64,000 bases of DNA. Source: Cloeon dipterum. Taxonomy: Eukaryota; Arthropoda; Insecta; Ephemeroptera; Baetidae. The position numbers and the translations under genes were made by a program. This document shows, piece after piece, positions 1-53,253 of the stretch. The notes beneath the pieces were generated by a model. It saw nothing but the letters and a program-made list of their open reading frames with translations, searched no databases and had not been told where the DNA came from. Each line of letters starts with the position of its first letter. Position 1 is the stretch's first letter. Location of the stretch: contig NC_088787.1 of the NCBI RefSeq assembly GCF_949628265.1, positions 1,974,501 through 2,038,500 of the forward strand, read 5' to 3'.

Positions 1-36
1 AAGGATATCTGCAAAAATAAAATAACAAAAAGATGT

Positions 37-22715: not shown

Positions 22716-25135
22716 TCATGGCAGGATTTTCAGGTACTGCGCCGATTCAGAAGAAGTGTCATCGAAACGTGGTGTGGAGTAATCCGGTGCAACTTCATCG
22801 TAGAGAGGTTCCGGTTCAGGAGGGCCGACGTCGTCGTTTTCGACTGGAGCAAGAGGCGCCTCTCCAAAATTCTCGAAAGTCCGCGGCCTCTCAGGCATCG
22901 CTTTCACTCTTCTCGCCGATCGCGGGCTGAGACATATCGGCTGCTCGTAGAGACCAGGAGAAGGGGGCGTGGCACCAACCTGGTCGTATTTGACTTCATC
23001 GTACAGTCCTTCCTCGGCGCCGACGTTTTCGTACTCGGCGGCGCCTCCCGAATCTCCATATTGGACTTCGTGGTACTCGGGTGGCTCGTTGGGAAAGACG
23101 GACATTTCCTGGGTCTCGTTGGTGTTTGATGGAAGGGAATTATTGTTCCTCCTGTGTCTCAGGATGAGCCAAAGAATGACCAGACTCGGCAGGATTACGC
23201 AGAACACGATGGAGCAGATCAGAATGACGGATAGTTCTGTAATAGCGGTAAACAGAAGGCATTTAATTGGGTTTTTGGAAGATCGGAATGATAATGTCGT
23301 TTTTTTCTAGCATGAGAATATGTCTGTCATCACAATCAAAAAATTTAGTCGAAAGTATATTGAAAATTGGTTCTCTAACGGTTTCTGCAATGCATTGAAT
23401 GGAATTTTGAAATTATTAATTATTTAAATAATCTCAAAAGCACTGGAAACCTTTTTTCATTATTTTTTGCATTAAAAAGTTGTCTCTGTTCAGATGAAAC
23501 TCACCTGGCGAGGCTTTGAGAGATTTGGCTCCGACTGCAGCCTTCAAAAGCCTGTATCTTGGCTTTCCTTTGTAGTTTAACGAAATCATCCAAAGGGTTC
23601 CATTTTGGTCCAGGGCAAAAGTAAAGGGGCAAGAGGATTCCAGACCAGTGTCCTATAATAAGCAATTGCACCGGCTCAACGATAGTGAAAACTACGAAAA
23701 GTGATTGGTAGTTGAATGAAAAATATATTATTGAAATGCAACAGTTAGATTTTGATCCTGTTAAAAAATAAATCATTTCGCGTATGTGAGCTAGGACAAG
23801 TTTTAGATTAAATTAAAGTTGAGACCAACGATAGTTTATTTTTCCTGCCACAAAACACTGCACGATTTTTTTTATTAAATTTTAACTTCCTGCGACTATA
23901 AAAGCACAAGAAAATATGTATGTAGAATAATTTCCGTCTCTGACTAACGAACCCGTTTTAGTACAAATTAATCCAAACTAATATTTGAATGTAATTGGCT
24001 GATTCATTAGGAGATATTTAATATCCAGATTTCAAAAATCATAATTTTGAATTACTGAACTTGACTTTCGCCAAACTAGATCAAAATTGTGTATTCTGTA
24101 CTGAAACGTTATTTTAAAATGGTGACCTCTCTACCTCATAAAAAGGCTGCTCCTCAAATGGCTGGGATGTGTTCCAGTAGTGTACGTAATTCGCCCTAAA
24201 AAAGGCAGCTAACATATTCCCGTTGTTGTCCACCAGAATTCTGCATGGCAGTGCAGTCCATTTTCCGATTAGTTCCGGATTAGCAGTTCTAGTTCCGTTG
24301 CGGAGTGTGGCAGTGGAACGAATTGAATACAGCTCTTTCGAGCGCCAATCGCCAAGGTAAAGATGTCTTGGTTCCTCCTTAGGGGACAGTGCAATGGAAT
24401 AAAACACGATTCCTGGCGTGTCCACTGTCCAAGACTGGTTTCTTTCCAGACTAAACACGACAATGTTGACATCACGCTTATGCAAGATGTAGGCGAAGGT
24501 TCCGTGTGGCGTTTCATCCAGCACCAAGTCGTGCATAAAATAGCGAAAAGAAAATCGATGAATTAGTTTGGTTTGATCGTTGTTGATTAAATCGATGGTC
24601 CATATTTTGTCATTGCATTTGTCGCTACCACTGTCCAACACCCACAGTCTTCCAACGGAATCCACTTGCAGCCCTTTTGCAACTTCAATTTTGTTGCAGT
24701 CTCCATTCCCCTGCAAACAGAGGAAATGATTTTTGACGCAGACGAGCGCATTGTTGCTTTTTGCAACTAAAATTTAAATTGGTGACCTGGCATTGTATTT
24801 TTGCAACTTACATTCATGTCCCACGAAGGGAATGGAGTGAGCTTCGGGGCTGCAGAGGACGCGCTGCTCGTCGGCAAGACAACCAGAGTGACAGGAATGT
24901 TATTATATTTAAATAGGCTGAGGAAGATCCTTGTTCCGTAGACAGCCATGTATCGAGGTTCAACATTGTCTGGTATGAAAGTTCTATTTTGCAAGACTTC
25001 TGTCCTGTTTGCCTCGGAGGGCCACACGTAATCCAATTCATTCCACTCGAAGATTTGACTGAAGTTATCGGCTCCGGTGCATATGGCCAGCGATGAGAGG
25101 TCGAGCAAGAAAATGGCGCAAAAGAACGGAGACAT
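22716..25135 (-). CDS. Yellow/MRJP-family receptor-like protein with tyrosine-rich cytoplasmic tail (gene 3)
   Basis: Coding exons 25135-24812, 24710-24135, 23652-23505 and 23236-22716 join to 522 aa; the acceptor before the start is at 25157. The ectodomain has a signal peptide (MSPFFCAIFLLDLSSLAI), FEWNELDYVWPS, GLQVDSVGRLWVLDSG and HDLVLDETPHGTFAYI. The last exon opens with a membrane helix (VILICSIVFCVILPSLVILWLIL), then RHRRN as a stop-transfer signal. A cytoplasmic tail of about 150 residues follows, with YHEV, YENV, YDEV, YDQV, YEQP and a second YDEV. YENV fits the YxN docking pattern for Grb2/Drk-type SH2 domains. The tail also holds QEMSVFP, echoed as QEMSVLP in gene 4. A tail of this kind is not typical of Yellow proteins as I know them. 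Confidence 0.85.
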
Positions 25136-25159
25136 TCTTCCAGCTTCTTATTCCAACTG

Positions 25160-25829
25160 TTCACAAAAGGCACGAAATCAAAAAATAAAACCGTACGTTA
25201 TTATAACGGGAAATTTTTGAAAGGAACGACGAACGAGCCCATCAAATGTGCAATTTTAAGCCATGCAAACAAAGCTAGAAATAATCTGCAGCCATCTGTA
25301 AAAACTCAAACAATTTTAAAATCGCACCAATATGAAAATTTGAGAGAAATTGAAGTAAATTTAAAAACGAAATAAATCCCACGGGTAAAATTATCTTTTC
25401 TCGACGGAAACATGAAGCAAACACAACGTGCACATGCCAAAAGTAAAGCAGCTGAACTCAATTTCCAGGATCATAATTACTAAATAGCAATATTTAAATT
25501 AAATGGGTGAGGGAAAGCATTAAAAGCGGGGCAAAAAACTGTTTCCTTTGGCGGAGGAAGGCTTGATTTCTTGCTCGAAATTCTTATCGCTCTTTTCGTT
25601 CGCGTGGATGCGACAGTCGCGAGAGAATTTGTAAGTAACGAGCATAGCATTGATCCTAGAATTCATTGCTTTTTCAATTTATTTTAATGCTGTTTTTTTA
25701 TTAATTAAATCAGAATTAAAAACAACAGGCTGCACGGAAGACGGAAGTGGTAATAGACGTACACTCGCTGCCTTTTCTTGATAAGAATTTGAGCAAAGCT
25801 GCAAGCAGTTAAAATCTTTTTATTTGTTA
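25160..25829. other. Upstream region of yellow-like gene 3
   Basis: Should contain the leader exon and promoter of gene 3 on the minus strand. I could not fix a TATA/initiator pair. Confidence 0.4.
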
Positions 25830-26401
25830 TTAATAACAATTTAAAAATAAATCGACAGGAATTAGAGGAAAATTTAAAAGAGACTTTTTCCATGCGTCGA
25901 CCGAAGGAGGTTTGCCAGAGAACGTGCGTCGTCCCTGACTTTCTCTTGAGGCTCAAAAAGAATGGAAATTGCCAAAAAATGTATTTTACGGCTTTATTTT
26001 CCCCTTGATCGTAATTAATTTCAAGCAAAAATGTTTTTTGATACAGTAGATAATTTATTATACAAAAAATTAAATAAATAATGCAAAAAACTATATATTT
26101 TAAAGATAAAAAAGTAGCCTGTGTCGACAATAAGTTAAGGCAAACATAACTTACCCCGGTGAAAGGGCGCCGCAGGCGGCTGTGCGGCACTTCTTTTGCG
26201 CTCGTCAGATCGGTGATTGCCGCTCCGCATCCGCACACTCGCCTCTGCTCGCGTTTTTGATAAGAGTGTTGTGTGGTTTTCCATTTCCATGTCCTCCGCA
26301 AACACGTAATTATGCCAAGTAAGGGGGATTTCTAGCAGTGATAAAGAGACCATATAGGTGGTTTTTTGTATTTCCGACAATTCAAACAGTGGGAAGTCCA
26401 T
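25830..26401 (-). CDS. Small two-exon gene of unknown function
   Basis: Exon 26401-26155 starts MDFPLFELSEIQKTTYMVSL and ends at a strong donor (CGGG|GTAAGT). Exon 25951-25830 continues in phase (SRESQGRRTFSGKPPSVDAW) to a stop, and an AATAAA follows within ten bases. The product would be 122 aa, basic in the middle, with no signal peptide or membrane helix. No family recognised. The second acceptor (TTTTTGAG) is modest, so the 3' part is the weaker half. Confidence 0.4.
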
Positions 26402-27189
26402 TTTTCACTCGTCAAAAAGGAAAAAATAAGCGGCGGAAGAGTGCGGTCAATCTCCAAGGCGTGAACACAAATCAGAATCGTGGTATGCTTTCTTTCTATT
26501 CTACTTGATTAGCTCTCAAATTTGAAAAGTGCAACACGCTTTTTCTCTTAACTATTCTGAATTTCCTATTAACCAGAAAAAATATATCAGAGTAAAGTGA
26601 ATGCGCGCGCTCCCCATCATAGCAGAAGATAACGAGCTCTGAACTGACAATGAGTTGCCCTAGTGATGAGTTTTAAGGTCGCAACCGGAAGATGGCGCTA
26701 CAAATACTGTTTCCAGTCGGGACTAAATCAGAGAGTAAGAACTTGACCGCTTCACCACCATGTGTCCTTTTTCCCACCGCTTTCCTAAAATAATGCAGAG
26801 CACCAGGATATTCGAGCGTTGATAAAGTGCCGCTGAAAGGAAATAATTTAACCTCAGCCGCAGAAACATGCGAGTGAAATGAATGCTGTGAACTGGAAAG
26901 GAAACAAACCGATGAACACTATACATGGGTTTTTATCGCCAAAGTGAGAGAGCCGGAGCCGGAGCAGGGCGCCCTTGCGTCCTTTTTACAAGTCGACCTG
27001 GGACGGTGGTTTCCCTTTGCAGGGGTCGTTTGATGTGCCAGGCTACCGAGAGCCTGAGGTGTCTAATGGGCCAATTTTAAGTTCAAAGGAAATTAATAAT
27101 TAATTGCCTTGCAAATTATTGAGACCAAGATCAAGTGCTTTCAGATAATATGTTAAGTTCGGTGCTTGGCAAACAAAGGAGGATTTTTA
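26402..27189. other. Intergenic
   Basis: No supported exon. A phrase of about 60 bp at 26441-26500 (GTCAATCTCCAAGGCG, GAACACAAATCAGAATCG) recurs diverged at 35626-35690. Confidence 0.45.
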
Positions 27190-27799
27190 ATCAATATAGT
27201 TTTGTAATTATTGTTTTAATTTACAATTTTTTGTTAGAAAAATATTATTTAATCGGGTAGAGAAAGAGAAAACCGAATAAAATTTTTGAACAGAAGAAGT
27301 TGCAGCTGTCAAATAGGATTTAAGGAATTTTGTCTTCTTGAAATAGCAGAGATTTCTCTCTTTGAATAAAAAATACAATGGACTGATCCCTCCCAGGTAG
27401 AGTTTACGCAATCTCATCCCCGTTTCCCCTCTTTTCAATTGTTGCTCAGCATTGAGCAGGGCCGGACGTTTTTGTCGACCGCTGCGATTCCGATTTTTTT
27501 CCGGAATTTCCTGCAACTGTAACATTTCATTTTTAAGGTAAAGTATTGCATAATATACGAGATATGATTTTAAAACTTTCGCCTTTCTAATAGCCATCAG
27601 CCCTAAATTAAGGCATGCAGAAAAACTTTCGTAATTTCATATATTGATTTATTTTATCACGCGTGTATTTTGTTCATTTTTTAATGTAAAACAAGAATAT
27701 TTGTCTGCCAATCAACCAAAATCGATTTCATATAGTAAGCGAAAAAATCTCTGAAATCCGACGGAAACGTAAAAAACCGTTACTTTGGTCGTTTTTGAG

Positions 27800-27962
27800 T
27801 AAACCAATCCAAAAGTGCCACAAGAATGCAACTGACCAATCAGAGGAAGGATGAGCGGCTCCCTGATTGGCTGATTATGACGATGCGTTCGCCTAAAAGA
27901 TCGAGACGGCAGCGCCACAGTATTAATGATTGGTCGCCGGCGTTTTCGTGGAATCTTTTGAT
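27800..27962 (+). promoter_or_regulatory. Cluster of CCAAT/ATTGG boxes upstream of the adaptor-like gene
   Basis: Five CCAAT cores in alternating orientation (about 27804, 27838, 27868, 27925 and 27956) precede the gene at 28107. Four are kept in the second copy (43222-43405). Paired ACCAATCAG...TGATTGGCT of this kind suits NF-Y binding. Similar pairs occur at 1947-1983 and 32114-32178. Confidence 0.5.
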
Positions 27963-28106
27963 TGGCCAACACAAAAAAAAACCGCCAAAATAAACGGTTT
28001 TACGTTATCACCGCGATTAACGACAAGGTTGTTCCGAATTTGAAAAGCAGAATAATACAACTAAACTCGTTTGTAGGGATTGAGAACGTGTATAAAAAGC
28101 GAAGAA

Positions 28107-28649
28107 ATGGAGAGCCCTGTACCAACGTGTACCAAAATCGCTACCCCGACCGAGAAGCAGCAGGAAAGGAGCTTCCAATTCGACGACCTCCATTGGCTTT
28201 TGATCTGCATCGTGCTCTTGTTGGGTTCCATCATTATTTGGCTCTTTCTCAAACCGAAGAAGTACACCTCGATTGCGAACCGGAACCAGGAAGAGGAAAT
28301 ATCGTTCGCCAGCACCGAATCGTCAGACGTGTACCAAGAAATCCCAGACGTACCCGCAAATGACGACGACGGCGCCAACCTTGCATTGCAACCCGCCGAA
28401 ACGAACGACGTTCACTACCTTCCAATGCGCCCCATTTTACCAGGCAAAAGGAACAACAACGTGTACGTGGAAATGCGCCCTGCACCTCTACCAGCCATGC
28501 ACGCGGAAACAAACTACATCAATGTTGCCCCTCTGCCGAAAATTGGCAGCCTTCCGAGGGCTAACCTGGCACAGGCGGACTCTGCTCCAGAGAGACAGCC
28601 CAGCCAGGAGGAATTGATAAATGAGAAAGAGCGACGAACTTGGTTTTAA
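28107..28649 (+). CDS. Single-pass membrane adaptor-like protein with tyrosine motifs, copy 1
   Basis: Intronless frame of 180 aa. The start at 28107 (MESPVPT) is the one conserved in copy 2. About 27 polar residues precede one hydrophobic helix (LLICIVLLLGSIIIWLFL) and a KPKK stop-transfer, so an N-outside, C-inside topology without signal peptide is expected. The tail carries YQEIP, YLPM, YVEM and YINV. YxxM is the docking pattern of the PI3-kinase p85 SH2 domain, and YINV fits the YxN pattern of Grb2/Drk. The overall layout matches transmembrane adaptor proteins such as LAT, PAG and LAX, but there is no clear sequence homology by eye. Reading-frame conservation with copy 2 supports coding. 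Confidence 0.7.
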   Translation: MESPVPTCTKIATPTEKQQERSFQFDDLHWLLICIVLLLGSIIIWLFLKPKKYTSIANRNQEEEISFASTESSDVYQEIPDVPANDDDGANLALQPAETNDVHYLPMRPILPGKRNNNVYVEMRPAPLPAMHAETNYINVAPLPKIGSLPRANLAQADSAPERQPSQEELINEKERRTWF

Positions 28650-29214
28650 ATCCTAGCAAAGAAGCGATGGACAATGCGAATGTTTCGCATTTGAAACATT
28701 CTATTTGAATTTCCATGTCTAAATTCTTTTTGATTGCATCCAATTTCTTTAGAAATCTAAGCAGAAATATATCGATAAATTTTGCAATCATCCACTTGAA
28801 TTCTTATTGAAAAATATACCTAATAAAAAAGTAAATACATATATAGGTGACCGGCAGGACTTCAAAGAGAAACAGGTTGCGTATATTCGCAATTTAAATT
28901 TTATTTTTCGTACTGGAGTCCAGCAGGTTATGATCTGCATTAGTTGTGACCGGTCAGTAGTCAATATGGCGTCGAATTTTATAATTGTTTGAATATTCGA
29001 CCATTTTTAAGCTGCGCAGTAAACGTTTGCGCATCTTAAGCATGCGCAGTACGTCCAGATCGCTTCTCCATCTCACAGGGAGGCTGAAACTCATCATTTC
29101 TGTATAAGAGGAAATAACTATATTAGTGATTAAATCACGATGACTGTCTGCTCATGATAATGCAAAGTTTGGTTATTAAATTATTGTGAAAACATTTTCA
29201 TCGCTATGCAAAAT
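28650..29214. other. 3' flank of adaptor-like copy 1
   Basis: Contains the tail of the segmental duplication (to about 29060). NRF-1-like GCATGCGCAG lies at about 29041. No exon. Confidence 0.5.
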
Positions 29215-29870
29215 TTAAAATCTACAATCGCGCGGTGCTTTTGCGTTCTCCATGTTTTTGCTCTCTTTTAACAGAAAGCCTGTTTGTGGTGGACGTGAGT
29301 CCGGATGTGCATGCGGTGTGCGCGCATGACGGAATTGAAGCGTAACTATAGAACTAGAGCACTTCCATAAGAACTGCTCTCGCCAAATTATTTCAGCAAA
29401 AGAAAACAATCTGTCAGGTTTTTTCATTTCTCTTCCAAGTCAATGGGGCAACCTGCCCTTTCTGAAAGAATCCTGACCGGCCTTCAACCTTCTGGGCAAC
29501 AGTAAAGTCAATTTATTATACAATAACTTTCTGCAGTCTTTTTGCAAATTTTGAAACTTAAAATGTGCTGTGCTTGAGCTCTCTTGAGTATAGTTTTGCT
29601 CTATTTAGATAGGAAGTCTGTTTGAAACCATTTTGTGGTGGACGTGACTTTACGTGAGTCTGCATGTGCCTGGTGTGCGCGCATCAAGGCAACGAAGCCG
29701 GACAAGCACTTCCGTGAAAACTGCTCTTGCAACATTATTTCAGCAAAAGCACAAGCTGACAGGAAACAGTCTGTCTGGTCGCTGGTGTTGAACATCACTT
29801 TTAACAGAGTGAAAACGCAACATGGTTGTGGTGAAAAGGCTCCTTTTTCGAGTCCTGCTTCTGCTCTCCC
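29215..29870 (+). repeat. Left arm of inverted repeat carrying a promoter and first exon
   Basis: Matches 31390-32010 in inverted orientation over about 600 bp (for example GTGGTGGACGTGAGTCCGGA and GGGGCAACCTGCCC). The arm itself contains two diverged tandem blocks starting near 29240 and 29600. It extends into the first exon of the lectin-domain gene: ATGGTTGTGG is present in both arms. Confidence 0.8.
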
Positions 29871-32800
29871 TCCTTGTAATCGTTGCAGGTTTGTTTAGAA
29901 TGTGTAATATGCAGGACTGGACTTACGTTATATTTTCTTTAGAGGTTTGGGGTGCAACCACTCGCAGGAAGAAATCAACCACCACAACCCCGAAAAAAAG
30001 GATCAGGAAATCAACAACTAGAACAACAGTCAAGTCAACGACCACCAGTCCGAAAACCGAGAGTCCGATTTATCAATTTTGCAGAAACTACAATCGAATA
30101 AAAAAGGTTTGGTTCGTAATTTAACTGCAATTATTTTTATAATGTTTTTTTAATAAATCAGAAAGTGCACGACACGGCACAAAGTGAAGGTTAACCATCA
30201 TTTTTCTTTTATTTTACATATTTAAATTTGTATACCTTATTCAAAGATTTCATCATAGGAACACGTGGTAAATAATATCTTGGGTCAAAAGAAAAAAAAT
30301 TCAATTAATTTGCGTCAAAGATTTCATAACCGAAATATTTGACGATCGAGACAGGCAGCACGGATCATTCTATCAAAGGGGCAGAAAACAGTTGAAATTT
30401 CATTTTGAAAGCTTTTACAAAGTAAACAGTACAGTATATTATATTCCGAAACTTAGAATTAACTCGATATTTTCCCTTCAAATAGGTTGAGTACGACAGA
30501 GCAGTGGAGGCGTGTTTGTACCGGAAACTGCACCTGCTGGCGCTCGACACGGCCGACGAAATCGATGATTTTTATTTTTACTGGAGGGGAGAAATAGTTG
30601 GATATGGTAATTACTCCGGTCTAAATTAATAATTTTAAAATATAACCTTTTGTTTCAGAGGACAGAGAGTTTTTGTGGACGAGTGCAGCGCCGTGTTCGA
30701 AAAGCGATCCGCTGAACAAAGCCACGAATTCATGCTCCAGCGTCACCTGGTGTCCAAACAACGTGGAAACTCGACTTAACTACACGTTGAATTTAAGCAA
30801 CTTTACTCGGCCCTACTGCATTATTTTTAGAACCACGGGGAAAAAATTCGAACCGATGGATTGCTCCTTTAAATCTATTTTTTCGTGCGAGGTGATTCAA
30901 GTCGTTAGCTTCTTTAATAAATATATTTGCATTCTTGGATTTAGTCAGCGTGCTCGAGGCCCATTTTACCGCCAAAGAATGAGTGCCAGAAAGATGTAAA
31001 TGGAAATTAATGAGATGTGAATAATTAAGGAAACAATGAAATTTTGGCAGGAGTCCTTATTTGAAGTAATTGGCGGGAAAACCTACCTTGGAAAAGGTTC
31101 CTTTTGAATTTTCCATTTAGAAACATTTAAGAATTTTAAAACAGAACATAACATCCGTGGCACGTGGGAGCAAACCAAATTTGGCTTTTATTTCCTTGGA
31201 GAGAAATTGGTATTTTTCATAAAAGTTTCCCAAACAAATTAAAAATATATTCTCGAAGGTGAACTGGAAGGAGAATTGGATGACATGCTGCAGTCTGGGC
31301 CTCAAACCTTTAGCTGTGACGAACGATCTTTGGGACCATTTCAAGAAAGCGAATAACTGTAAATATCTTTACAAATCGTTCCCAAATATGGTTTTTGGAC
31401 GTAGCCCCCATCCTTTTCGCCACAACCATGTTGGGTTTTCGCTCTGTTCAAAGTGACTTTCAACGCCAGCGACCAGACAGACTGTTTCCTGTCAGCTTGT
31501 GCTTTTGCTGAAATAATGTTGCAAGAGCAGTTTTCACGGAAGTGCTTGTTCCACTTCGTTGCCTTTATGTGCGCACACCAGGCACATGCACACTTCATAT
31601 AAAGTCACGTCCACCACAAAATGGTTTCAAACAGACTTCCTGTCTAAGCAGAGCAAAACTACACTCAGGAGAGCCCAAGCACAGCACATTTTAAGTTTCA
31701 AAATTTGCAAAAAGACTGCAGAAAGTTATTGCATGGTAAATTGACTTATTTACTGTTTGCCAGAAGATTGAAGGGCGGTTAGGATTCTTTTGGAAAGGGC
31801 AGGTTGCCCCATTGAATTGGAAGAGAAATGAAAAAACCTGTTGAAAGATTGTTTTCTTTTAATGAAATAATTTAGCGAGAGCAGTTCTTATGGAAGTGCT
31901 CAAGTTCTAGTTACTCTTCAATTCCGTCATGCGCGCACACCGCATGCACATCCGGACTCACGTCCACCACAAACAGGCTTTCAAGAGAACAAAAATATGG
32001 AGAGTGCATGGACAGATGGTCAATTTTCGTTTTTAAAACGAAAATCAGTGAAAACGTAGAAATCGTTAATTAGGCGGATATTTTCCGTCACTAGCGCCAC
32101 AAGAACGTCGGCGACCAATGAGAGAAGCGAGTGAAACAGCTGTAGCTTTGGTTTACTGTCGCTGCTGTCTCGATTAGGCCAATCAGAGACGGAGAGAGCA
32201 CCCGATGGGTCGTCGGCGTTCTGTGTAACGGTTTGTGATCGGTCCAGACCCTAAATACCTCCAAAGTTTTACGTTTCCGCCGATTTTTGGCACGTTGAGT
32301 GGGAAAAACCTGATTCGAAGATCCAGTGATCGATTGGCCCAGTCTAAAAACCACTTTTTTGCAGCCGTGCAGAATTTGGTTTACTGGTCGGCAATGAATC
32401 GAAATGGATGTCCTCTTCACTTCGAAAACTTCCTCCACAACTTATCAGCAACGTCCCTAAATAGTATACATGGAATCAGGAAAGGAGGGTCTTGCGTGGC
32501 CGTTTCGTTTCGAGAAAAAGTCAACATTGAGATTGACCCTGCTATAGTATTTAAGACCACCGCCTGCGCATCCAAACTGCTGTTGGGCTGCGAAGAAACG
32601 GAAAAGACCTTCGAAATCAGGGTTAAAAATGTTTAAAACTTTTTTTGTATCTCAAATTTATCTGGTTCAAGGAGGACACAATAAGCAACTGCGACCTTCC
32701 AGAGTGCACAGGGCTACCCGATTGCGTAATGGAAGTACGATTGCGAATCCTAGGAACTTTTGACAAAATTATTGAGATTTTTTGCAGCATGATTTTTTCC

Positions 32801-36440: not shown

Positions 36441-36483
36441 GTTTCTCGCGCAGCCCCTCTCTTCTCGTTGCAGCTGCAGCTCA

Positions 36484-36572
36484 TTGTCAGTCAGAACGTC
36501 GAGCAGTGCACACGTCGGCCCTCTGCTGTTGTTATCACCACATTTTCTCGATTCTTGCAGCCTCGGTTCTCC
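36484..36572 (+). promoter_or_regulatory. Probable start region and leader exon of the prolyl oligopeptidase gene
   Basis: TCAGTCAG at about 36487 fits an initiator. A GC-richer leader ends at a good donor, GGTTCTCC|GTAAGTC (36572/36573), and would splice to the acceptor at about 37120. No TATA box is evident. Confidence 0.4.
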
Positions 36573-42125: not shown

Positions 42126-42189
42126 GTTACAATTAGCTCTCCTCTTCTTGTTAATTGTGTAACATAAAACATGAAAGAAAGAAAATAAA

Positions 42190-42595
42190 AATGAATTGAG
42201 CTCAACTAAAACTGCTATGCTGATTTAGCGATCGGCTGCTTCCTTAAAAAAATGATAACGATGAAAGTTAACGAGGGTATCAATGTGTCGTATAAATGAA
42301 CTATTAAATTACTCCAGCGCAAGTTCAGGAATCTAAAGGATCGCAAAAAACCTTCCCATACCTTTTGATATAAACTTCGGAAACGCTTGCATACAAAATC
42401 GGCGACAATGTGAGATAACTTTCTTACTAAAAGGCCTTTCAAAAGGAATATTTGCAAGGCTGGACGGATGAGGAATACTATGTTTATAAAAGGACACTCT
42501 ACCAACTTGAATGTTTTAGTGTTTTCAAGTTTTGCCACTTTAACAACGCCTGACGGAAGCAATAAATAATTTTGATTTGCAAGACCATTTGAACA
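42190..42595. other. Intergenic, 3' of prolyl oligopeptidase
   Basis: No exon recognised; a minus-strand frame here has no splice or homology support. Confidence 0.45.
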
Positions 42596-42599
42596 GCTT

Positions 42600-44430
42600 T
42601 ACCTTTGCAAAAAAGGAAGATTTTTAATCGATATTTTTGTTTACATTTTTTTGTAAAAATATATTTTTCAATCGTGTGGAGAAAGAGAAAATATTTCAGG
42701 CAGCTGAGGAATTTTCCTAAAATTCCTTTTTGAGCAGCAGCAGTTGCAGCGGCCAGAAAGGTTTTATGGAATTTTTCCTTCTTGAAATAGCAGAGATTTC
42801 TCACTTTGAATAAATACAATGGATTGATCCCTCCCAGGTAGAGTTTGCGCTATTTCAGCCCCGTTTCCCCTCTTTTCAATTGTTGCTCAGCATTGAGTAG
42901 GGCCGGACGCTTCCGTCGACCGCTGATTCCGATTTTTCTGGAATTTCTTTCAGCTATAACATTTTATTTGAAGGTAAATTATTGCATTTCCTAAAGTCTT
43001 TCATATCAAAATTTCACTTTTATAATAGCCATTGGCCCTGAATTAAGTGTGCAGATTAATTTCAGTAATTTAAAATATTAATTTATTTTCACACGTGTGA
43101 ATTTTCCGTCCTTGAATGTAAAACCGGGACTTTTCTTTGCCAATATGCCAAAATCAGTTTCAAAGTAAGCGCAATATTTAATAAAACGTGCTGAAATTCG
43201 ACGGAAACGTAAAAACCGTTACTTTGGCGGTGTTTGAGTAAACCAATCAAACTGTGCCACAAGAATGCAACCGACCAATCAGAGGAAGGATGAGCGGCTC
43301 CCTGATTGGCTGATGATGACGATGCGTTCGCCTAAAAGATCGAGACGGCAGCGCCACAGTATTAGTGATTAGTCGGCGGCGTTTTCGTGGAATATTTTGA
43401 TTGGCCGACACCAAAAAAACCGCCAAAATAAACGGTTTTACATTTTCACCGCGATTAACGACAAGGTTGTGTAAAATTCTAAAAGCAGAATAATACAATT
43501 AAACTCGTTTGTAGGCATTAAGAACGTGTATTAAAACCGAAGAAATGGAGAGCCACCATGTACCAACACCAAGCAGTACCTCTACCGAAATCGCAACCAC
43601 GACCGAGGTGCAGCAGGAAAGGAACTTCCAATTCGACGTACTCATCTTTCGACTTTTGTTCTGCATCATGCTCTGGTTGAGCTCCATCATTATTAGACTC
43701 ATTCCCGAACCGAAGGAACGGGAAATGACCGCCGTCAACAACGAGTTATCATGCGTGTACCAAGAAATCCCAGCTGCGCCCGCAGAGCCGACAAATGACG
43801 ACGGCGACGGCACCAACCTTCCAATGCGCCTCATTTTACCAGCCGAAGAGAACGACAACGGGTACGAGGAAATGCGCCCAGCGAGGGCTAACAGTGTCGA
43901 GCACCTGAAACAGGTGGCCGCTGCTCCAGTCGCTGAGCCGGAACCTCACTACGTAAACTTGTGGGATCACCAAAGTCAAGATGGTTTGGTAAAGGATCAG
44001 GTAGACGAACAAACTTAGCTTTAAAACCTGGACAACGTGAATGTTTCGCATTTGAAACATTCTATTTTAATTTCCACGCATAAATAATTTTTAATTGCAT
44101 CCAATTTCTTTAGAAATCTAAGCAGAAATATATCAATAAATTTTGCAATCATCCATTTGAATTTTTATTGAAAGATATACCAAATAAAAAAAGTAAATAC
44201 ATAGGTAACCGGCAAGACTTCAAAGAGAAACAGGTTGCATATATTCGCAATTTAAATTTTATTTTTCTCACTTGAGTGCAGAGGTTATGAGTTATGATCT
44301 GCGTTAGTTCTGGCATTGAATTTCATTAATTTTATAATATTCGCCCATTTTGAAGCTGCGCAGTAAACTTGTGCGCATCTTAAGCATGCGCAGTATGTCC
44401 AGATCGCTTCTCCATCTCAAAGGAAGGCTG
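42600..44430. repeat. Segmental duplication, copy 2
   Basis: Same order and orientation as 27190-29060. The conserved block CCGTTTCCCCTCTTTTCAAT with GTTGCTCAGCATTGAG is nearly unchanged between copies, although a minus-strand frame open in copy 1 is shifted here, so that block is probably not coding. Confidence 0.85.
43545..44018 (+). CDS. Single-pass membrane adaptor-like protein with tyrosine motifs, copy 2
   Basis: Intronless frame of 157 aa starting MESHHVPTPSS. The helix reads LLFCIMLWLSSIIIRLI, and the stop-transfer has fewer basic residues (PEPKERE) than copy 1. The tail keeps YQEIP, YEEM (a YxxM motif, followed as in copy 1 by RP) and YVNL (a YxN motif), while the spacing sequence has diverged and is shorter. 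Retention of the tyrosine motifs through indels suggests they matter. The arginine inside the helix (IIIRLI) is unusual and could mark pairing with an acidic partner or weakened insertion. Confidence 0.68.
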   Translation: MESHHVPTPSSTSTEIATTTEVQQERNFQFDVLIFRLLFCIMLWLSSIIIRLIPEPKEREMTAVNNELSCVYQEIPAAPAEPTNDDGDGTNLPMRLILPAEENDNGYEEMRPARANSVEHLKQVAAAPVAEPEPHYVNLWDHQSQDGLVKDQVDEQT

Positions 44431-45039
44431 AAACTCATCACTGCGCATGCGTGACCCAAATCAAAACCTTCTGCGCAGTCGTAATTCCCACCGGGATCCG
44501 GGTTGTTATCTTTTTTTGGTTTCCCGCTGTCAGAAGTCAATATGGCATCGAAATAATGGAGGCCAATCAGGAGACAGACCATTGGCCAATCAGGAGCATC
44601 GAAAAAGAGGCGTGCCAACCCGATAGTTTTATTTCCACGTATTTTGTTACTTTCCCATCAGCCAGACGTGCCATCTAACAGTCAACTCACCAATTACCGG
44701 GCTAATCATTTGTTAAATAAATATTCAAATTTCCCGCCGCACTCTTCCAGATGCCATTTGCGCGTCGCGTGAATCCGGCTCCCGGTGTTGTTTTCAGCAT
44801 CAATCCTCTTTTAAAGAATAAGGGAAAGTCGAAAATTGACAACAATGCATTTGTGTGCAGGAAAGAAATACTGTGAATGCGGTCAGTAAGCAGTTTTCTT
44901 TTCATTCTATCGCAGGATCGATTCAGGAGGCGAAAGGTTGTTCCGATAAATTAAAGCTTCAGGATCTCTTTCATATGTATCGGCGCTATTTATTAAAATT
45001 TAACCGGAGAAATCAAAAAAAAATATAACTGCGGGGTTG
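44431..45039. other. Intergenic
   Basis: Begins with NRF-1-like CTGCGCATGCGTG (about 44441) and a pair of CCAAT cores near 44564 and 44585, resembling a promoter. No following gene on either strand could be recognised. Confidence 0.4.
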
Positions 45040-46792
45040 TCACTTGTTTGACTTGTACGAACACCTCACCCTTCTTCTCTTATCGGAAAGCAATTCTTCT
45101 TCGATAGTCTGACAGCATCTGGTGCGTGCGACAATTTCGCCCTCAACTATTTGCTCGTTAGAGATTTGCAGCACGAAATTCGTGACTTTTTTCAGGATAG
45201 CACGCTTTGTGACCAAAAGCATCGTTTCCCATAATTCATCAAGAGTGGTAGGAACTCTGATCAGACTCACTTTCTCCAGATTCGGCACCGACAGGATTTT
45301 GGAGAGATGAACATACGTTTGATTAGAGCTGTGTAATATTCGTTTTAGTATAATTATGCAGTGAGTCAACAAAATTTACTCACGACTGCTCGGAAACGAA
45401 CTCCAACTTGATCTCTTTCAGTGAATCACAAGAGAATTCTCTAAAATGTTGATGCACCACGCAGTCCAGCTGGCAATTCCCGCGCTTTCCTTCCTTCGTC
45501 ACCGTAAAGGGTTCGACGTCTAAGTTTGTCATAGCTAGCAGTTTCAGATTGTCAAAAGAGCTGCTGCAAATTATGTTAAAAAGCCAGACGAAATCTATCG
45601 GATGCGATTTAAATGCGAGAGTCAGGCGTGTCAGGCGCTCTCCGTAGGCATTAAGGAATCGCTTAATGTAGACGGAATACTTTGTGGCCAAGCCACTCAT
45701 GGTGAGGATAGTTAGATGCTCAAATTCCAACAGTTCGGGCACATCAAATCCTAAATGTGGTTGATTTTGGTTCACCCAGTTGATCTGCAATAAAACAATT
45801 ACTTTTCTATATTCAAGTAACAGCCAAAATACTTTAACGCACATGCAAATATTCGACGTCAGGGAATTTAGAGAGCGCATTCTTTAGGATTTTTCTGTCC
45901 ACGCGGAGCACCAAGTATTTCAGTTTGCTTTGGTCTGTTGTTGCCAAGGATTCGTAGTACAAGCAAGTTGGCAACATGTCCACAAAATATTTGGGATCTC
46001 CCAAAACCTTTAAATTGGGCAGGTAGCGGATGCATTCGAGCGTTAATGACTTCCGGAATTCTTCGTCCCATTCACTTTCGTTCGAAACTGGGGAAAACTG
46101 GAAAATTTCCAAATGCTTAAAATTCTTCTCAAAGACGTCTAGGTTGCTGATTTCAAAATTGGGCTCAGCTTCGATTTTGAAGTAGAGTTGCTTCAGCGAG
46201 GGTAGCTTTCCACTCAGTTCCATGAGAGAGGAGAAGGAAATCGAGAAGTGTCGGACCTTGAGGACTTTCAATTTGCTCATTTTAGCAAAGGCACTGACCA
46301 TTTTCTCGCTCATGCTCCACAAAGTAAATTGTTGTTTTCGAGCAGATCCATCCATGATTTGGAAGTCGGACATGTTTGTAGCGTTGGATGCAATCGTTAT
46401 CAGAATCTACAGTCAAGTAAAACGTAAAAAACGAACCAAGAAATGTCAAAATTATGCTCACATTTGCTATTATCAAACGATCATCTTCAGGAATTAAATC
46501 CATGACTTTAGCGAAGTTAATTTTGGTTAACTTTGGACATCTATATGCCAGAATTCGCTTTTTGATCGCAATTGTTATAGGCAGTCTACGTTTTTTCATC
46601 ACATCCTTGACTAAATTGTAAAATTCCTCTTCTGGTGAAAGGGCTGCTGCAAATTTAGTAGCTCGATTTAGACAAATAAAAAATAAATCTTCAACATAAG
46701 TATATAATGAAATAAAGAAACTTCTTTAAATACTTACGCTGCAAGTTCAATCCATTTTCTGGATTATTTGAGGTCGAGTCAATTTGTTCCAT
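45040..46792 (-). CDS. Leucine-rich-repeat-like protein, palindrome copy 1
   Basis: Exons 46792-46738, 46646-46462, 46406-45843, 45784-45384 and 45328-45040 join in phase to 497 aa. The start is MEQIDSTSNNPENGLNL. The body shows repeated leucine-rich segments (LKVLKVRHFSISFSSLMEL, LPSLKQLYFKIEAE, FEHLTILTMSGLA, LKLLAMTNLDV, SLKEIKLEFVSEQ, VPNLEKVSLIRVP). There is no signal peptide or membrane helix, so it is probably intracellular. An N-terminal helical region precedes the repeats. Irregular repeats behind such a region are common in arthropod F-box/LRR proteins, but no clear F-box is visible. Its mirror-image partner starts at 48220. Confidence 0.82.
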
Positions 46793-48219
46793 TTTTATCC
46801 ACAGCTTTTAGACTTCTGCTGGAAATTATAATGCACCTTTAGAAATTATCTGGAATTTCAGGAATGCATTGAAAAAGATATCCATCATTCCTAAATCGGA
46901 CTATAAATTAATTTTCACGATAAAAATGAATATGCAATTTGAAATTATCTTTTGTATTATCAATTTAGTAAAATACCAGGTTAACTTACATGCTTGAGAA
47001 ATTCGATTCGATAGCGCGCACGGATCGACACACTTCTACCCTCGGAGGTGATGAGATAAGAATGGGAGTGGAAAGCCTTGCTTGGGCCTTAAACGCAGTG
47101 GAGGAGAGGAAAAGTTCCCCGCCTCACCAATCTCAGGTAGTTAAGGGATGTTGACAAGCCTGGAATACTAGAAATTACTTTCCTTTAGCAATTGCAACCT
47201 TCTTCTCTGTTCCGCATATCAATATAGATGTGGAATGATAGGAATTATAAAATTCTGAAAATCTGACAGCACCAAATAAAGCAAGCCTTGCATTTCTCAA
47301 GATAAAATATTAAATGATTTACCTGGTCATCACGTTCAGACTGCAATATTATAAATTAAATGGCTGATATTCCTCTGCGTAGAGTAATTTTAGTATCCTA
47401 TAAAACCTGGCAAATTTTAATCAATTTTCTCTGCGAAAGTAAATCTCCGAATTCACTTTTCTCGGACGATTTTACAAATTTTCCCTGCATAACCATCTAA
47501 TCAGTGGGGCTTATTTCTCCAGTCAACCTCTCGTTTTCTTTATAAATAGCAATTTCAAGCATAAGCTCCAAGCCTAAAATAATTTAAAACAGAAAATTGA
47601 TTGAACTTAGCTAAGTTTATTTTTTAGGACACTTTAATTACTCTGCGCGGAGATATTTCGCAGCTATTATAATTAAAACAAATAGTTGAGATTTAGAGAC
47701 AAAAATTCAAGGTTTATTCGCTGTTAAGATTTTCTGAATTATTTTGGCTGCACATAATTCCTGGCATTCCGTCTTTTTACAATTAGCTATGCATGAAATA
47801 ATGTTGAATTTGCTTCAATAGAATAATTTCTAGAATTCTAGGCTTGTCGATCATGCACCCCTTCCCTGCGATTGATGAGGAGGGGATATTTCTTTCCTCC
47901 ACTGCACCTACGGCAGGGATAAGTAAGGTTTTCCCCACGCCAATTATCATCTAACCACCTCCGAGAGTGGTTTATAGCGTCGTTCGTGCGCACAGTCTCA
48001 ATCAAATTTCTCCAGCATGTAAGTTAACCTAGTATTTTACTAAATTAATAATACAAAAGATAATTTCACATTGCACAATCTTCTTTATCATGAAAATTTA
48101 TAAGTTACAGTTAGATTTAGGAATGATGGATATCTTTTTCAATGCATTCCTGAAATTCCAGATAAATTCTAAAGGTGCATTGTAATTTCCAGCAGTTGTC
48201 TAAAAAGCTGTGGATAAAA
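46793..48219. other. Shared divergent promoter region at the palindrome centre
   Basis: About 1.4 kb between two divergent start codons. Both sides hold TCAATCA/AATTTCTCCAGCATG|GTAAGTT-like leader exons ending just before a donor (about 46990 minus, 48010 plus), so each gene probably has a non-coding first exon there. No other gene seen. Confidence 0.5.
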
Positions 48220-49989
48220 ATGGAACAAATTGACTCGTGCTCAAATAATCCAGAAAATGGATTGAACTCGCAGCGTCGTAAGTATTTAAAGAGAAATTCG
48301 AAATTCCTTTTTTGATTCTGCTGAGGATTTGTAATAATAAGCTACTGAATTTGCAGCTACCCTGTCACCCCATGAGGAATTTCTCAATTTGATCAAGATT
48401 TGGTTAGATTCTACGAATGATACAACAAACGAACGAAAAAAGAAAATTCTAGCAAAAAGATGCCGAATGTTCAGGAAAATCAACTTCGCGAAATTCATGA
48501 ATTTATTTCCTGAAGACGATCCTTTGATTTTAACAGATGTGAGCAAAACTTTGACATTTCTTGGTTCATTTTTAACGTTTTATTTGACCGTATATAGGTG
48601 CTGGTGGCGATTACATCTCACGCAACAAACTTGTCAAACTTCCAAATCATGGATAGATCTGCAAAAAATATTACTTTGAGGAGCATGAGCGAGAAAATGG
48701 TCCGCGCTTTTGCTAAAATGACCAAGTTGGAGGTCCTCAAGGTTGAGCACTTCTCCATTTCTTTCTCTTCACTCATGAAGCTGTGTAGAAAGCTACCCTT
48801 GCTCAAGATTCTCTTCTTCAAAATCGAAGCTGAGCCCAATTTCAAAATCGACGACATAGAAGTCTTTCAGAAGAGTTTCGGGCATTTGGAAAAGTTCCAG
48901 TTTTCTCCAGTTTCGAACGAAAGTAGATGGGAGATGAATATGCGGTTGACATTAACGGAACAATGCATCCTCTACCTGCCCAATTTAAGAGTTGTGGGAG
49001 AACCCGGCTATTGGGTGGACATGTTGCCAACTTACTTATACTACGAATCTGTGGCTAAATTCAAACAGAGTAAACTGGGTCACTTGGCGATCTACATGAA
49101 CAGAAATATCAAAGAGAAAGCACTCTCAAAGTTCCCTGAGGTCGGATACATGCATGTGCGTTTAATTTTATTCGGGGTATTGCTTTAATTGAAAAGTATA
49201 ATTGTTTGATTGCAGATCTATGGGGAAAATAATCGAAAGAATAAAGAATATCAGGTGCCTGGACTTTTGGAATTTGAGCATCTAACTTTCCTCCTCATGA
49301 GTGACTTGGGCACTAATCATTCTGTCTACATTAACCGATTCCTCGAGGTCTACGGAAAGCGCCTGACACACCTGATGCTCGAATTTCAATCGCATCCGAT
49401 CGATTTCGTTTGGCTTTTCAATTCGATTTGCTGCAACTCATATGACAATCTTAGCGGATTAGTTATGTATAACTTATTCGTCCAACCCAGTACGGTCAAA
49501 TTGTCTGAGAGGAAAAGCGTTGTTTGCAAGCTGGACTGCGAGAAGCATCAACATTTTGACGAATTCTCTTGCGAATCGCTGAAAGAGCTGGAATTGGAAT
49601 TCGCTTCCAAGCAGACGTGAGTAATTTTGCTGACCCACTGCTTTATTTTTTGACTTAAATGAATATTTTACAGCTTTCGTCAAGCGTATGTTCATCTCTC
49701 CAAAATCCTGTCGGTGCCGAATCTGGAGAACGTGAGGCTGTCCAGAGTTCCTACCACTCTTGATGAATTACGGAAAACGATGGATTTGGTCACAAAGCGT
49801 TCTATCCTGAAAAAAGTCACTAATTTCGTGCTGGAACTCTCTAATAACGAGCAAATGACCAAGAGGGAAATTGTCGCACGCACCATATGCTGTAAGACTA
49901 TCAAAAAAGAATTGCTCTCTGGTAAGAAAGAGGGTGCGGTATTCGTAGAGGTCACTCAATTGACGCTCCCGCATGAACCTCAGCAATAA
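48220..49989 (+). CDS. Leucine-rich-repeat-like protein, palindrome copy 2
   Basis: Exons 48220-48277, 48357-48538, 48598-49155, 49216-49616 and 49674-49989 give 504 aa with the same phases as copy 1. The start MEQIDSCSNNPENGLNSQ is near-identical. Second-exon sequence has diverged most (WLDSTNDTTNERKKKILAK against the KKRRLPITIAIKKRILAY of copy 1). Later segments stay close (SISFSSLMKL, LPLLKILFFKIEAE, LSVPNLENVRLSRVP). The C-terminus is extended and ends LPHEPQQ. Cytosolic and of unknown function; a substrate-recognition role would be inference. Confidence 0.82.
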
Positions 49990-50674
49990 AATGTCTTGGA
50001 TTTTCTCAATAAAATTTCATAAAGTGACACTTTAGTTTTTAATTTATCCGAAAAACATTCCTGGTAACAAGTTAAAAATATATAGAACGTTGGTGCCTCC
50101 GCAGCTGCAAGAAAAAATGTCTGGTTTTTTGATAAATTAATTAAATTTAAATTTATTTTCCTTAATAATTACGCGGCATACGCACATGTCTGACATCTGG
50201 TTTTGACGCTAGTCTGATTCCGACAGGAAATTAGATTAAAATTCAAAAGGCCTGAAAGGAAGCGCGTTTAATTAGCTATAACTGAAAGAAAAATATGTTT
50301 AAATATTTAACTGTTTTATTCCATATGACATCTAGAAAACTAGATGACCCGTATGTTTTTTCAAATAATTAATTAATAGTAAATTCAGAAGGTCTGATAT
50401 TTATTAAATATTAATTTTAACTTTTGTGCTGGGGATTGAAGGGCATACTTTTGTCTCTCTTGCATTGCAATGACGATTCTAAATACATCGTATTGAAATT
50501 AGTCAGAGTACCCGTCACTTCTGTTTGCTCTAGAGAGACTGAATCATTATATATTTATTCTTTTTAATTGGTTTAGAGAGTGCGTCATTTTAGCATCTGG
50601 AAAATGCAGACCAGTCAAATCCGGCAGTTATTTTTGGTTCTTTTCGTGGTTTACAAAAACTTCCTTGTGCAGAC
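49990..50674. other. Intergenic
   Basis: No exon recognised; AATAAAA at about 50008 could be the polyadenylation signal of the preceding gene. Confidence 0.45.
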
Positions 50675-50676
50675 TG

Positions 50677-50766
50677 CTTAAAAAGGCAAAGCTAATTGGC
50701 TTGAAAATCATTTCTTCTCAGTATTGAACGCGACAACACTTGATCTGTATTCGCAGTCAACCAAAG
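50677..50766 (+). promoter_or_regulatory. Possible core promoter and leader exon of yellow-like gene 4
   Basis: CTTAAAAAGG at 50677-50686 and TCAGTA at 50717-50722, a spacing of about 40 bp and so a little long. The leader exon ends ACCAAAG|GTTAGT at 50766 and splices to 50912, parallel to the leader introns of the other yellow-like genes. Confidence 0.45.
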
Positions 50767-50921
50767 GTTAGTTTTTGTCCGAAGTTTTCATAATTAATTC
50801 TAATCAATTAGCCGAACATACGGGGTTTATATTTTTGAAATGATCAGAACTAAAGCAATTAGCAGTTACATGCTTTGAAAAAATAATTTTTATAATTTTT
50901 TTGACTCACAGTTCTTGAACG

Positions 50922-53253
50922 ATGAGTTGGTTCCTCATCCTGGCTTTGCTGCTCGGTCTGTCCGCGGCCTCCATCAACTTCACCGCCGTTTTTGAGTGGG
51001 GGAACTTTGACTTTTCGTGGCCTTCAGAAGATTTTAGAAAAGAAGCTTTTAAAAAGAAAGGGTATTTTCGTATTATCCCAGAGGATCATGTCGTTTACGG
51101 GGAAAGAGTATTTATCAGCATTCATAAATCGAAAGATTACCCAATTCCATTTACCCTAAACTGGCTGTCGACCACTGCGTCTTCAAGGTCTCCGAAACTG
51201 AATCCTTTTCCCACATGGAGAATGCACGTAAGTATCTATGTGATCTTGGGCAACCGCATACATTAAATGTCATATCTTTTTAACGATTTTTCGGGGTCTT
51301 ATTAATTTCCTTTGGGATTAAATAAAAAAGTGGTGAAAAACCAAAGGTTAAGAAATTTAATGAAAGGTCAAAATCCGGTTGAGAGTTAATTTTTCGATCA
51401 TACGAATACTGAAAAATATAGTTTTTTCATTAATTCTTTATAGGAAACAGGAAACTGCATGACTATGCAGCGCATCAATGGCATGGTGGTTGACGTTTGT
51501 GGTCGCCTTTGGGCCGTTGACAACGGAAATGAGAATTGTCCAGCCAAGATCTGGATTTTTGACCTAACTGAAAACGATTCAGTCATTCTGGTCCACCAAT
51601 TCGGCAATGATGTCATCAAGCATACCTTTGGAAACAGGAATCTGACTTCCCTAGTCCTTGATAAGAGACCGAACGACACTTTGGCGTATATTCCTGACTT
51701 TATGTCGAAAAACTTGATCGTTTTTAGCTTCAAGGAGAACGTTTCATGGGCTATCAAAGTTAAGAACATCCCCATTCATTCTATTGCCCTTTCGCCAACA
51801 AAGGGCAAAGAATTGGTCTACCTGGGATCATCGGTACAAACGGAACTATATTCAGTTCCCCTTTCGGAATTAAGGATGAGGGGAAGAAAAACTGCTTTGA
51901 CCCCTACTCTGGTTGGCAACAAGAAAGCCGGCTCCTTTAGAATGCTCATGGACAACAAAGGGAAACTATATTTCGACCTCAGACTATTGAGCTACATCGG
52001 CACGTGGGACACCACTACTTCTCCCTTACAGGAAGAACAACTCTACAAGGTATTTACCTTGTTGAAAATTTTAACTCATTTAAATACCCTAGTTTAAACC
52101 TGTTTAAATATTCATTTGCCAAAGATGCATATTTAAAATATTTAAAACATCCTAGAAAATTATCATGAACATATAGTTCCAGGCGAACTTTTGTTCATCA
52201 GTTTGAAAAGATAATTTTTTCATTTTTTTGCTGCTAAAATATTGACGTGTTGCAGAATTACCGTTAGTATTATACTTGCTTAGAGACGAAAATCCCCAAA
52301 AATTAATAGTTTTGTGTTTCCGTAAAATGGTCTCTAAGAGAAATGCAATGTGCTTCTTTTCCTAGAAGGTTCTTAATTAGAAATTTATTAATTTAAGAAT
52401 GTTTTGACTCATATAATTCGTATTTCGCTTTGTTTTAGGATGAGCGACTGACATTTTTTGACTACAAGTTCAGTTTTGCCTTTGACACGTGTAGTAATCT
52501 TTGGATACTGTCTAAAGGTAGAGATAAAACGACAAATTTTCGGCTTCTTCGCGCCGCAGTCGCTGCGAAGTCGTACCTGTATAACGACATCTTCACTCCA
52601 AAAGGTAAAGCTAAAAAAATACCAACACAAGGTGGCTTTAGAGGATACTGCTAGAGGAAAATATAAATGCAAAAGAATATATTTTAACTCATTCTTAAAA
52701 GTTATCGAATTTGTCATATAGATTTTCAGAGTGTATTTATCTGTGTTGGCAGGTTGCGGAAGGAATCACTTGAGGTTCCTAACAAAAATAAAAGAACCGA
52801 CCACTGTCAAACCTACCGAATTGCCACAAACTTCGAAAACTGTGCCTTTCCAAGTATCAAAAGCCAACACTCAGACAACCGTTCAAGTTTTTTTGACTGA
52901 AAAGCCGCAACCTAAGAAAGAAGTAATAAAATTTCAAATTGATTGCTGAATATGTAAACTTTATTCTTCCCTTACAGGCACCTTTCTTTTTGTGGAGCCT
53001 CATTGACGAAGATTCCATCGAAAAATCCCACTTGATCATCGCTTTGATCTGCTTGGTCCTTTTCAATGTGATTTCCTACTGCAATATTTTGTGGTTGGCT
53101 CTATGGGTGAAAGGATTGAAGAGAACCATTAACCTGAGGAAGAAGGAAAACCAGGAAATGTCTGTTTTGCCTTCTGATTACGAAGTCATCCCACGCGAGC
53201 AGTTTGACGAGGATATTTACGATGAAGTCGGTGCTCCTGTCACCTATGGCTAA
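50922..53253 (+). CDS. Yellow/MRJP-family receptor-like protein with stalk and tyrosine tail (gene 4)
   Basis: Exons 50922-51227, 51444-52049, 52439-52604, 52753-52922 and 52978-53253 give 507 aa. Signal peptide MSWFLILALLLGLSAA; then FEWGNFDFSWPSEDF, VVDVCGRLWAVDNG, RMLMDNKGKLYFDL and a Yellow-type end, CSNLWILSKG. An extra exon codes a Thr/Pro/Lys-rich stalk. The last exon has a membrane helix (LIIALICLVLFNVISYCNIL), then a basic turn, QEMSVLP, YEVIP and YDEV near the C-terminus. It is the most diverged of the four but shares the domain and intron plan plus the tail motif of gene 3. Confidence 0.86.

Follow-up and report, generated by a model that had tools for sequence, protein, structure and literature searches.

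Yellow-family ectodomains with a predicted membrane helix and tyrosine-motif tails: candidate receptors in a gene cluster of Cloeon dipterum

Introduction

Yellow proteins are familiar as secreted pigment, royal-jelly and salivary proteins. Here, we describe a cluster of four Yellow genes, termed A to D, in a stretch of 64,000 nucleotides from Cloeon dipterum (Ephemeroptera, Baetidae; assembly GCF_949628265.1, contig NC_088787.1, positions 1,974,501 to 2,038,500 of the forward strand), referred to as the window. Three of the four are predicted to continue behind the Yellow domain into a membrane helix, and C and D further into a cytoplasmic tail with recurrent tyrosine motifs. Two small neighbouring genes, E and F, encode predicted single-pass proteins with tails of a similar motif type. 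The typical Yellow protein is described as a signal peptide followed by one MRJP domain (PMC6678240), and yellow-e3 of the honeybee as having a signal peptide and no transmembrane region (PMC13147567). No membrane-anchored animal Yellow protein emerged from the literature that was searched, which excluded most subscription papers and animal proteomes, and membrane Yellow proteins may well be sitting unremarked in public annotations. A Yellow propeller displayed at the cell surface on a tyrosine-motif tail would constitute a receptor of a new kind.

Among the closest described systems is the Yellow/MRJP family itself (PF03022; structures 9w1k of the Aedes dopachrome conversion enzyme, 5yyl of MRJP1 and 3q6k of sand fly LJM11), with which the four proteins share ectodomain sequence, a hydrophobic N-terminus, a cysteine pair and, as modelled for C and D, the fold, while they differ from it by the helix and tail added in A, C and D and by the replacement of three pocket residues of LJM11. 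For the tails, a close parallel is nephrin, in which Nck binds at three YDxV sites and actin assembly follows (PMC12203975, PMC9333988). The tail of C, predicted to be disordered, likewise contains three YDxV sites, which are spaced by 5 and 62 residues, while those of nephrin lie at Y1176, Y1193 and Y1217. Nephrin exposes immunoglobulin domains instead of a Yellow propeller; the likeness is one of tails only.

Two further systems are relevant to the cluster as a whole. LAT and other transmembrane adaptors possess a short outside part, a single helix, YxN and YxxM motifs and a palmitoylated CxxC. E and F match this layout in their single helix, very short outside part and long YxN/YxxM tail, but are devoid of a juxtamembrane CxxC (their cysteines lie at 8 and 34 in E, and at 40 and 70 in F), the comparison being one of layout and not of aligned sequences. 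Paired immune receptors, in turn, are clustered paralogues with similar ectodomains that occur in signalling, motif-less and soluble forms; their ectodomain is unrelated to the Yellow propeller, and this is again a likeness only.

The Yellow gene cluster

The models of A to D were assembled from open frames and splice sites (Table 1). In all four genes the first three introns are in phases 0, 0 and 1, and the last junction falls at the same P|E codon in A, B and C, while D contains an extra exon, which encodes a stalk. The junctions at 23505/23236 and 52922/52978, through which the first-pass annotation had joined Yellow exons to membrane exons in C and D, coincide exactly with exon ends in the models and are flanked by GT donors and AG acceptors. 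The interval 22716-53253 delimited in that annotation does not include gene A, which features the helix but no motif.

Family membership is supported by profile searches. Against the curated PF03022 cut-off of 19.8 bits, exon 2 scored 74.8 bits in A, 75.4 in B, 67.2 in C and 79.3 in D, with E-values of 9.5e-21 and 6.5e-21 for exon 2 of A and B, and of 3.8e-16 and 1.4e-21 for the full proteins of C and D, respectively; the open frames of A exon 1 and C exon 3, queried singly, gave no Pfam match. A profile built from the four ectodomains retrieved MRJP1 (5e-26), the dopachrome conversion enzyme of Aedes (2e-25) and LJM11 (9e-12), although 20 of its 23 matches were designed Pizza propellers. Between C and D, the ectodomains share 40% identity, and those of A, B and C diverge by 0.24 to 0.26 nonsynonymous (dN) and 0.53 to 0.68 synonymous (dS) substitutions per site. 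Moreover, all four proteins begin with a hydrophobic segment, judged by hydropathy only (mean Kyte-Doolittle value, KD, 1.76 to 2.09), and all four contain a cysteine pair known from MRJP1, represented in gene C by C113 and C140. All N-glycosylation sequons of A (9), B (8) and D (5), and 7 of the 9 in C, fall within the ectodomains.

Membrane helix and predicted topology

Gene models and hydropathy bear out the earlier claim of a terminal transmembrane exon in A, C and D. Mean KD over 19 residues peaks in the C-terminal segment of A (2.12), C (3.11) and D (2.45), and in the putative signal peptide of B (1.76). With a predicted membrane anchor, A, C and D depart from the typical secreted layout, to which B conforms. 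B runs into a 26-base exon and then a stop, and a search downstream of it uncovered no trace of a helix exon (DNA scores 28 and 26, against shuffle maxima of 40 and 42). On the biological insertion scale, the helix segments give crude sums of +0.7 (A), -3.1 (C) and -0.7 (D), which renders the helix of A the least certain of the three. The flanking charges of A and D follow the positive-inside pattern, with 5 versus 1 and 6 versus 1 basic residues on the C-terminal versus the N-terminal side of the helix. A glycosylphosphatidylinositol anchor in place of the helix was considered and rejected, since 55 residues follow the segment in A, 147 in C and 50 in D.

AlphaFold2 models were computed for C and D, from three sequences each, and depict a beta propeller, a helix and a low-confidence tail taken as disordered; the stalk of D appears likewise. 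When these moderate-confidence models were compared with known structures by Foldseek, the best match of C was 9w1k (1.9e-13) and that of D was 5yyl (4.2e-17), and the top eight PDB chains belonged to the Yellow family for both (9w1k, 5yyl, 7asd and 3q6k).

Tyrosine motifs of the cytoplasmic tails

The tail motifs were found as first described: YHEV, YENV, YDEV, YDQV and a second YDEV in C, and YEVIP and YDEV in D. A stretch common to both tails, QEMSV(F/L)P, was likewise confirmed, as QEMSVFP in C and QEMSVLP in D. In the C tail, six of the nine tyrosines conform to Yxx[VILM] (shuffle p 0.00025). The stricter pattern Y[DEQH][ENQ]V occurs five times in C, a number reached in none of 20,000 shuffles, and once in D (shuffle p 0.016), but it was defined after the tails had been seen, so that these p values are optimistic. 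YDxV sites number three in C (Y428, Y433 and Y495) and one in D (Y497), while the A tail has a single tyrosine and no YxxV motif.

The co-occurrence of helix and motif was compared with chance across the window. Among 339 stop-to-stop open reading frames (ORFs) of at least 60 residues, 15 contain a hydrophobic 19-mer (KD at least 2.1), and Y[DEQHNVI][ENQ][VILM] follows the 19-mer in only four of these 15, namely the frames of C, E, F and D. In 40 windows simulated with an order-2 Markov model, no such ORF occurred.

Relatedness and history of the membrane-tail parts

At the protein level, C and D resemble each other in their membrane-tail parts, with an alignment score of 83 that none of 1000 shuffles reached (maximum 41), nor any of 1000 in which helix and tail were shuffled apart (maximum 53). 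The tails alone scored 52, above maxima of 50 in 1000 and 48 in 5000 shuffles. Within QEMSV(F/L)P, four of the seven codons differ between C and D, every change being at the third position and three of them silent. At the DNA level, the transmembrane exons of A and C are similar (score 90, against a maximum of 41 in 100 shuffles).

This distribution points to a fusion of helix and tail with the propeller that predates the split of D from the A/B/C group, and to a later loss of both helix and tail in B and of the motifs in A. The alternative, a gain in C and D only, would be less simple. The A tail may carry a frameshift, as suspected from its other reading frames; the A-C DNA alignment stops about 100 bases past the helix.

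Proposed mechanism

The gene models read from the DNA, the similar membrane-tail parts of C and D and the motif excess form the basis of the following reading. We consider it reasonably probable that C and D are signalling receptors, and that both of them and A have the type I membrane topology, A being a motif-less and B a soluble family member. A, C and D would accordingly be built of a signal peptide, a Yellow/MRJP propeller outside the cell, one helix and a tail inside. Ligand binding or clustering of the propeller would allow a membrane-associated tyrosine kinase to phosphorylate the tail, and it is plausible that the phosphorylated tails of C and D recruit SH2 proteins. Grb2 follows the rule YxN, and the p85 subunit of PI3K the rule YxxM. 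By these rules, YENV of C, YINV of E and YVNL of F fit the former, and YLPM and YVEM of E and YEEM of F the latter. The three YDxV sites of C and the single one of D might engage an Nck-type SH2/SH3 adaptor and YENV of C a Grb2-type adaptor, and their recruitment could result in local actin remodelling, adhesion or uptake. With B soluble and A motif-less, the cluster would resemble a paired receptor family comprising signalling, non-signalling and soluble forms.

If this holds true, a Yellow propeller can serve as the sensing part of a receptor, an ectodomain-based reporter would offer a direct route to Yellow ligands, and the locus would represent an invertebrate receptor family with signalling, motif-less and soluble forms, next to candidate membrane adaptors. 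A wider reading, which we regard as tentative and rather doubtful, combines the genes into a lineage-specific, fast-diversifying Yellow-propeller receptor system acting in one phosphotyrosine pathway, perhaps in blood cells, with E and F as LAT-like adaptors that would supply PI3K-type YxxM and Grb2-type YxN docking sites.

Besides the post hoc definition of the strict motif, several observations weigh against C and D being receptors. Splicing, topology, phosphorylation, adaptor identity and output are predictions from gene models built on DNA. The D tail contains three tyrosines, two of them in Yxx[VILM], which is not an enrichment (p 0.14); the positive-inside signal is absent from C, with 3 versus 3 basic residues; and the best AlphaFold2 models reached a mean predicted local distance difference test score (pLDDT) of 56.9 for C and 59.3 for D, the other four models scoring lower. 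The transmembrane exon DNA of C and D scored 36, below the shuffle maximum of 44, and the membrane-tail parts of A and D display no similarity, their score being reached by 115 of 1000 block shuffles. Constraint on the membrane-tail codons looks apparent in the C-D pair only: the proportions of synonymous and nonsynonymous differences (pS and pN) are 0.85 and 0.385 for C-D (74 codons), where pS is saturated and the selection test therefore crude, 0.48 and 0.40 for A-C (65 codons), which is near unconstrained, and 0.73 and 0.56 for A-D (76 codons). In addition, A is without motifs, whether lost or never possessed, and B without helix, so that the tail is dispensable in the family. Finally, relatives outside the window were not confirmed in the scanned contig collections, which comprised viruses, bacteria and archaea, and the result is hence silent on arthropods.

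Alternative explanations

The chief rival emerges from the motif itself, since each Yxx[VILM] site also fits the endocytic signal YxxΦ, which is read by AP-2 or AP-3 without phosphorylation. The membrane Yellow proteins would then be endocytic or scavenger receptors devoted to ligand clearance and not to signalling, for which soluble Yellow proteins of sand flies, which remove small mediators (PMC5094789), provide a precedent. Compatible sites number six in C, two in D, five in E and three in F. On the other hand, YxxΦ alone requires neither the acidic residues or asparagine that recur at +1 and +2 in C and D nor several sites per tail, and in the three motifs shared by E and F, the residues at Y, +2 and +3 are conserved at 8 of 9 positions. 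We judge uptake without signalling unlikely.

Clearly improbable, in our estimation, is that A, C and D act as Yellow enzymes or surface proteins at the membrane, where the helix merely anchors the propeller and the tail serves localisation. Gene A, with its helix and no motif, would suit such a role, and so would the functions of Yellow proteins in cuticle and eggshell; a Yellow-related bacterial protein, DR1790 of Deinococcus, is reported to localise to the membrane (PMC4507557). However, anchoring leaves both the motif excess in C and the shared tail of C and D unexplained, and the Asp328 and Asn342 positions of LJM11, which are retained in the Aedes dopachrome conversion enzyme, are replaced in A to D.

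That the helix exons are alternative or separate, with main transcripts that stop after exon 3 and encode secreted proteins, is very improbable: the frame of C exon 3 does continue a short way into the intron until it meets a stop (ORF 23434-23652), gene B has a structure of the secreted type, and polyadenylation-type signals occur as ATTAAA in the C intron after exon 3 and as AATAAA in the short intron 4 of D, but AATAAA is absent from the intron after exon 3 in A, C and D and present after the last exon in A and D (neither signal lies in the 216 bases after C), and both the common intron phase and the likeness of the C and D tails indicate that the helix exon is used.

The ligand

In the first-pass annotation, the proteins had been read as receptors in which a Yellow propeller senses a ligand, with amines among the known ligands of the family, while phosphotyrosines of the tail recruit SH2 proteins. 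The structural part of this interpretation is supported: intron phases, C-D similarity, the basic flank in A and D and the structural models all favour a single protein that comprises a Yellow propeller, a membrane helix and a tail with tyrosine motifs. The suggestion of amine sensing is not supported. Serotonin is bound in LJM11 by hydrogen bonds of Thr327, Asn342 and Phe344 (PMC5094789), while Asp328 lies in the pore and Phe325 is among five aromatic residues at the indole (PMC6678240). In an alignment anchored by the following LW, which ends before Phe344 and leaves Tyr90, Phe178 and Phe223 unmapped, Thr327 corresponds to phenylalanine in all four proteins, Asp328 to T, T, T and S and Asn342 to F, F, L and K in A, B, C and D, respectively. 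The Phe325 position is occupied by W, W, C and Y and is thus aromatic in three of the four. Replacement of the polar contacts Thr327, Asp328 and Asn342 in all four proteins makes an amine ligand less likely.

Two small single-pass proteins in a duplicated segment

E and F fall within the interval 22716-53253, although they are absent from the first-pass annotation. Both are predicted to be single-pass proteins (helix KD 2.93 in E and 2.56 in F), and the tail of E presents YTSI, YQEI, YLPM, YVEM and YINV. Yxx[VILM] accounts for all five tail tyrosines of E (shuffle p 0.00015) and all three of F (p 0.006), and YQEIP, Y(V/E)EMRP and Y(I/V)N(V/L) are common to both.

The two genes reside in a duplicated segment detected by blastn, of which the coding part is the least alike stretch, with 68.6% identity over 459 aligned bases. 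Identity amounts to 93.8% (259 bases) in the upstream stretch at 27760-28020, 87.2% (86 bases) between this stretch and the coding part, 89.0% (410 bases) in the downstream flank and 80.2% (555 bases) in the distal 5' stretch, and the coding part differs from the 93.8% and 89.0% stretches with a Fisher p of 3.6e-21. Within the shared motifs, Y, +2 and +3 are identical at 8 of 9 positions, compared to 33 of 77 positions elsewhere in the tails (one-sided Fisher p 0.010), a comparison biased toward that result since the sites were selected for aligned tyrosines. The pN/pS of the pair is 0.26/0.31. Rapid divergence with the docking sites kept constant is compatible with diversifying pressure on the tail, while relaxed constraint, or gene conversion affecting the flanks, would account for some of the pattern.

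E and F were taken as single-exon genes because both have an in-frame stop directly before the conserved stretch and also a highly conserved stretch upstream, though a spliced upstream exon could still exist. By eye, this stretch of 94% identity has CCAAT-like boxes and is perhaps a promoter.

No similarity was found between the tails of E and F and those of C and D: the respective scores were reached by 72 (D-F), 288 (E-C) and 177 (F-C) of 1000 shuffles. When the helices are added to the comparison, E shows a weak likeness to D (5 of 1000 block shuffles) and C (10 of 1000), so that a remote relationship with these two genes is conceivable, while F is not clearly like either (23 and 192 of 1000). 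A functional link of E and F with C and D would thus rest on neighbourhood and motif type.

Table 1. Positions of the Yellow genes, their membrane-tail parts and the E/F segment in the window
Feature	Position	Strand	Remarks
Gene A	exons 13754-14068, 14153-14743, 14974-15130 (Yellow), 15381-15619 (transmembrane)	+	tail of 55 residues
Gene B	exons 20739-21059, 21175-21750, 21889-22009, 22208-22233	+	Yellow domain without transmembrane exon; predicted secreted
Gene C	exons 25135-24812, 24710-24135, 23652-23505 (Yellow), 23236-22716 (transmembrane and tail)	-	
C transmembrane helix	23160..23231	-	residues 352-375; KD 3.11; model helix 349-382
C cytoplasmic tail	22716..23159	-	nine tyrosines
C tail QEMSVFP	23111-23091	-	
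C tail tyrosine codon starts	YHEV 23075, YGDS 23060, YENV 23033, YDEV 23003, YDQV 22988	-	
C tail tyrosine codon starts, remainder	YEQP 22949, YDEV 22802, YSTP 22781, YLKI 22736	-	
Gene D	exons 50922-51227, 51444-52049, 52439-52604 (Yellow), 52753-52922 (stalk), 52978-53253 (transmembrane and tail)	+	
D transmembrane helix	53026..53100	+	residues 433-457; KD 2.45; model helix 430-473
D cytoplasmic tail	53101..53253	+	QEMSVLP 53152-53172, YEVI 53179, YDEV 53218, last tyrosine 53245
Gene E	28107-28649	+	single-exon, single-pass, 180 residues; short N-terminus; helix 28191-28256
Gene F	43545-44018	+	paralogue of E, 157 residues; helix 43635-43703; tail YQEI, YEEM, YVNL
Duplicated segment, copy with E	27165..29096	+	blastn
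Duplicated segment, copy with F	42603..44440	+	blastn

Other features of the window

Searches of the window with Rfam (gathering scores) and ARAGORN returned nothing. Between genes F and D, two inverted copies (45030-47204 and 47797-49973) share 78% identity over 2.2 kb and contain, by eye, frames resembling leucine-rich repeats (LRR), one piece of which was tested and had no Pfam match; further LRR-like frames were recognised by eye at 54.9-56.3 kb and 61.7-62.9 kb, the latter with a weak LRR match below the cut-off. The forward strand carries a prolyl oligopeptidase gene at 37.1-42.1 kb, with Pfam S9 matches in three pieces, and lectin-like exons by eye at 30.5-35.2 kb, for which a hand-joined query gave one weak Lectin_C match below the curated cut-off. 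A tandem duplicate of 74% identity with hydrophobic segments (16222-17142 and 17826-18750) resembles, on visual inspection, the C-terminus of an insect odorant receptor, with no Pfam match above the cut-off. At the left edge (1-3340, reverse strand) lies the start of a secreted or membrane protein, cysteine-rich and EGF-like in appearance by eye, that continues past the edge, and positions 8704-10240 are occupied by a minisatellite-like array of repeated units.

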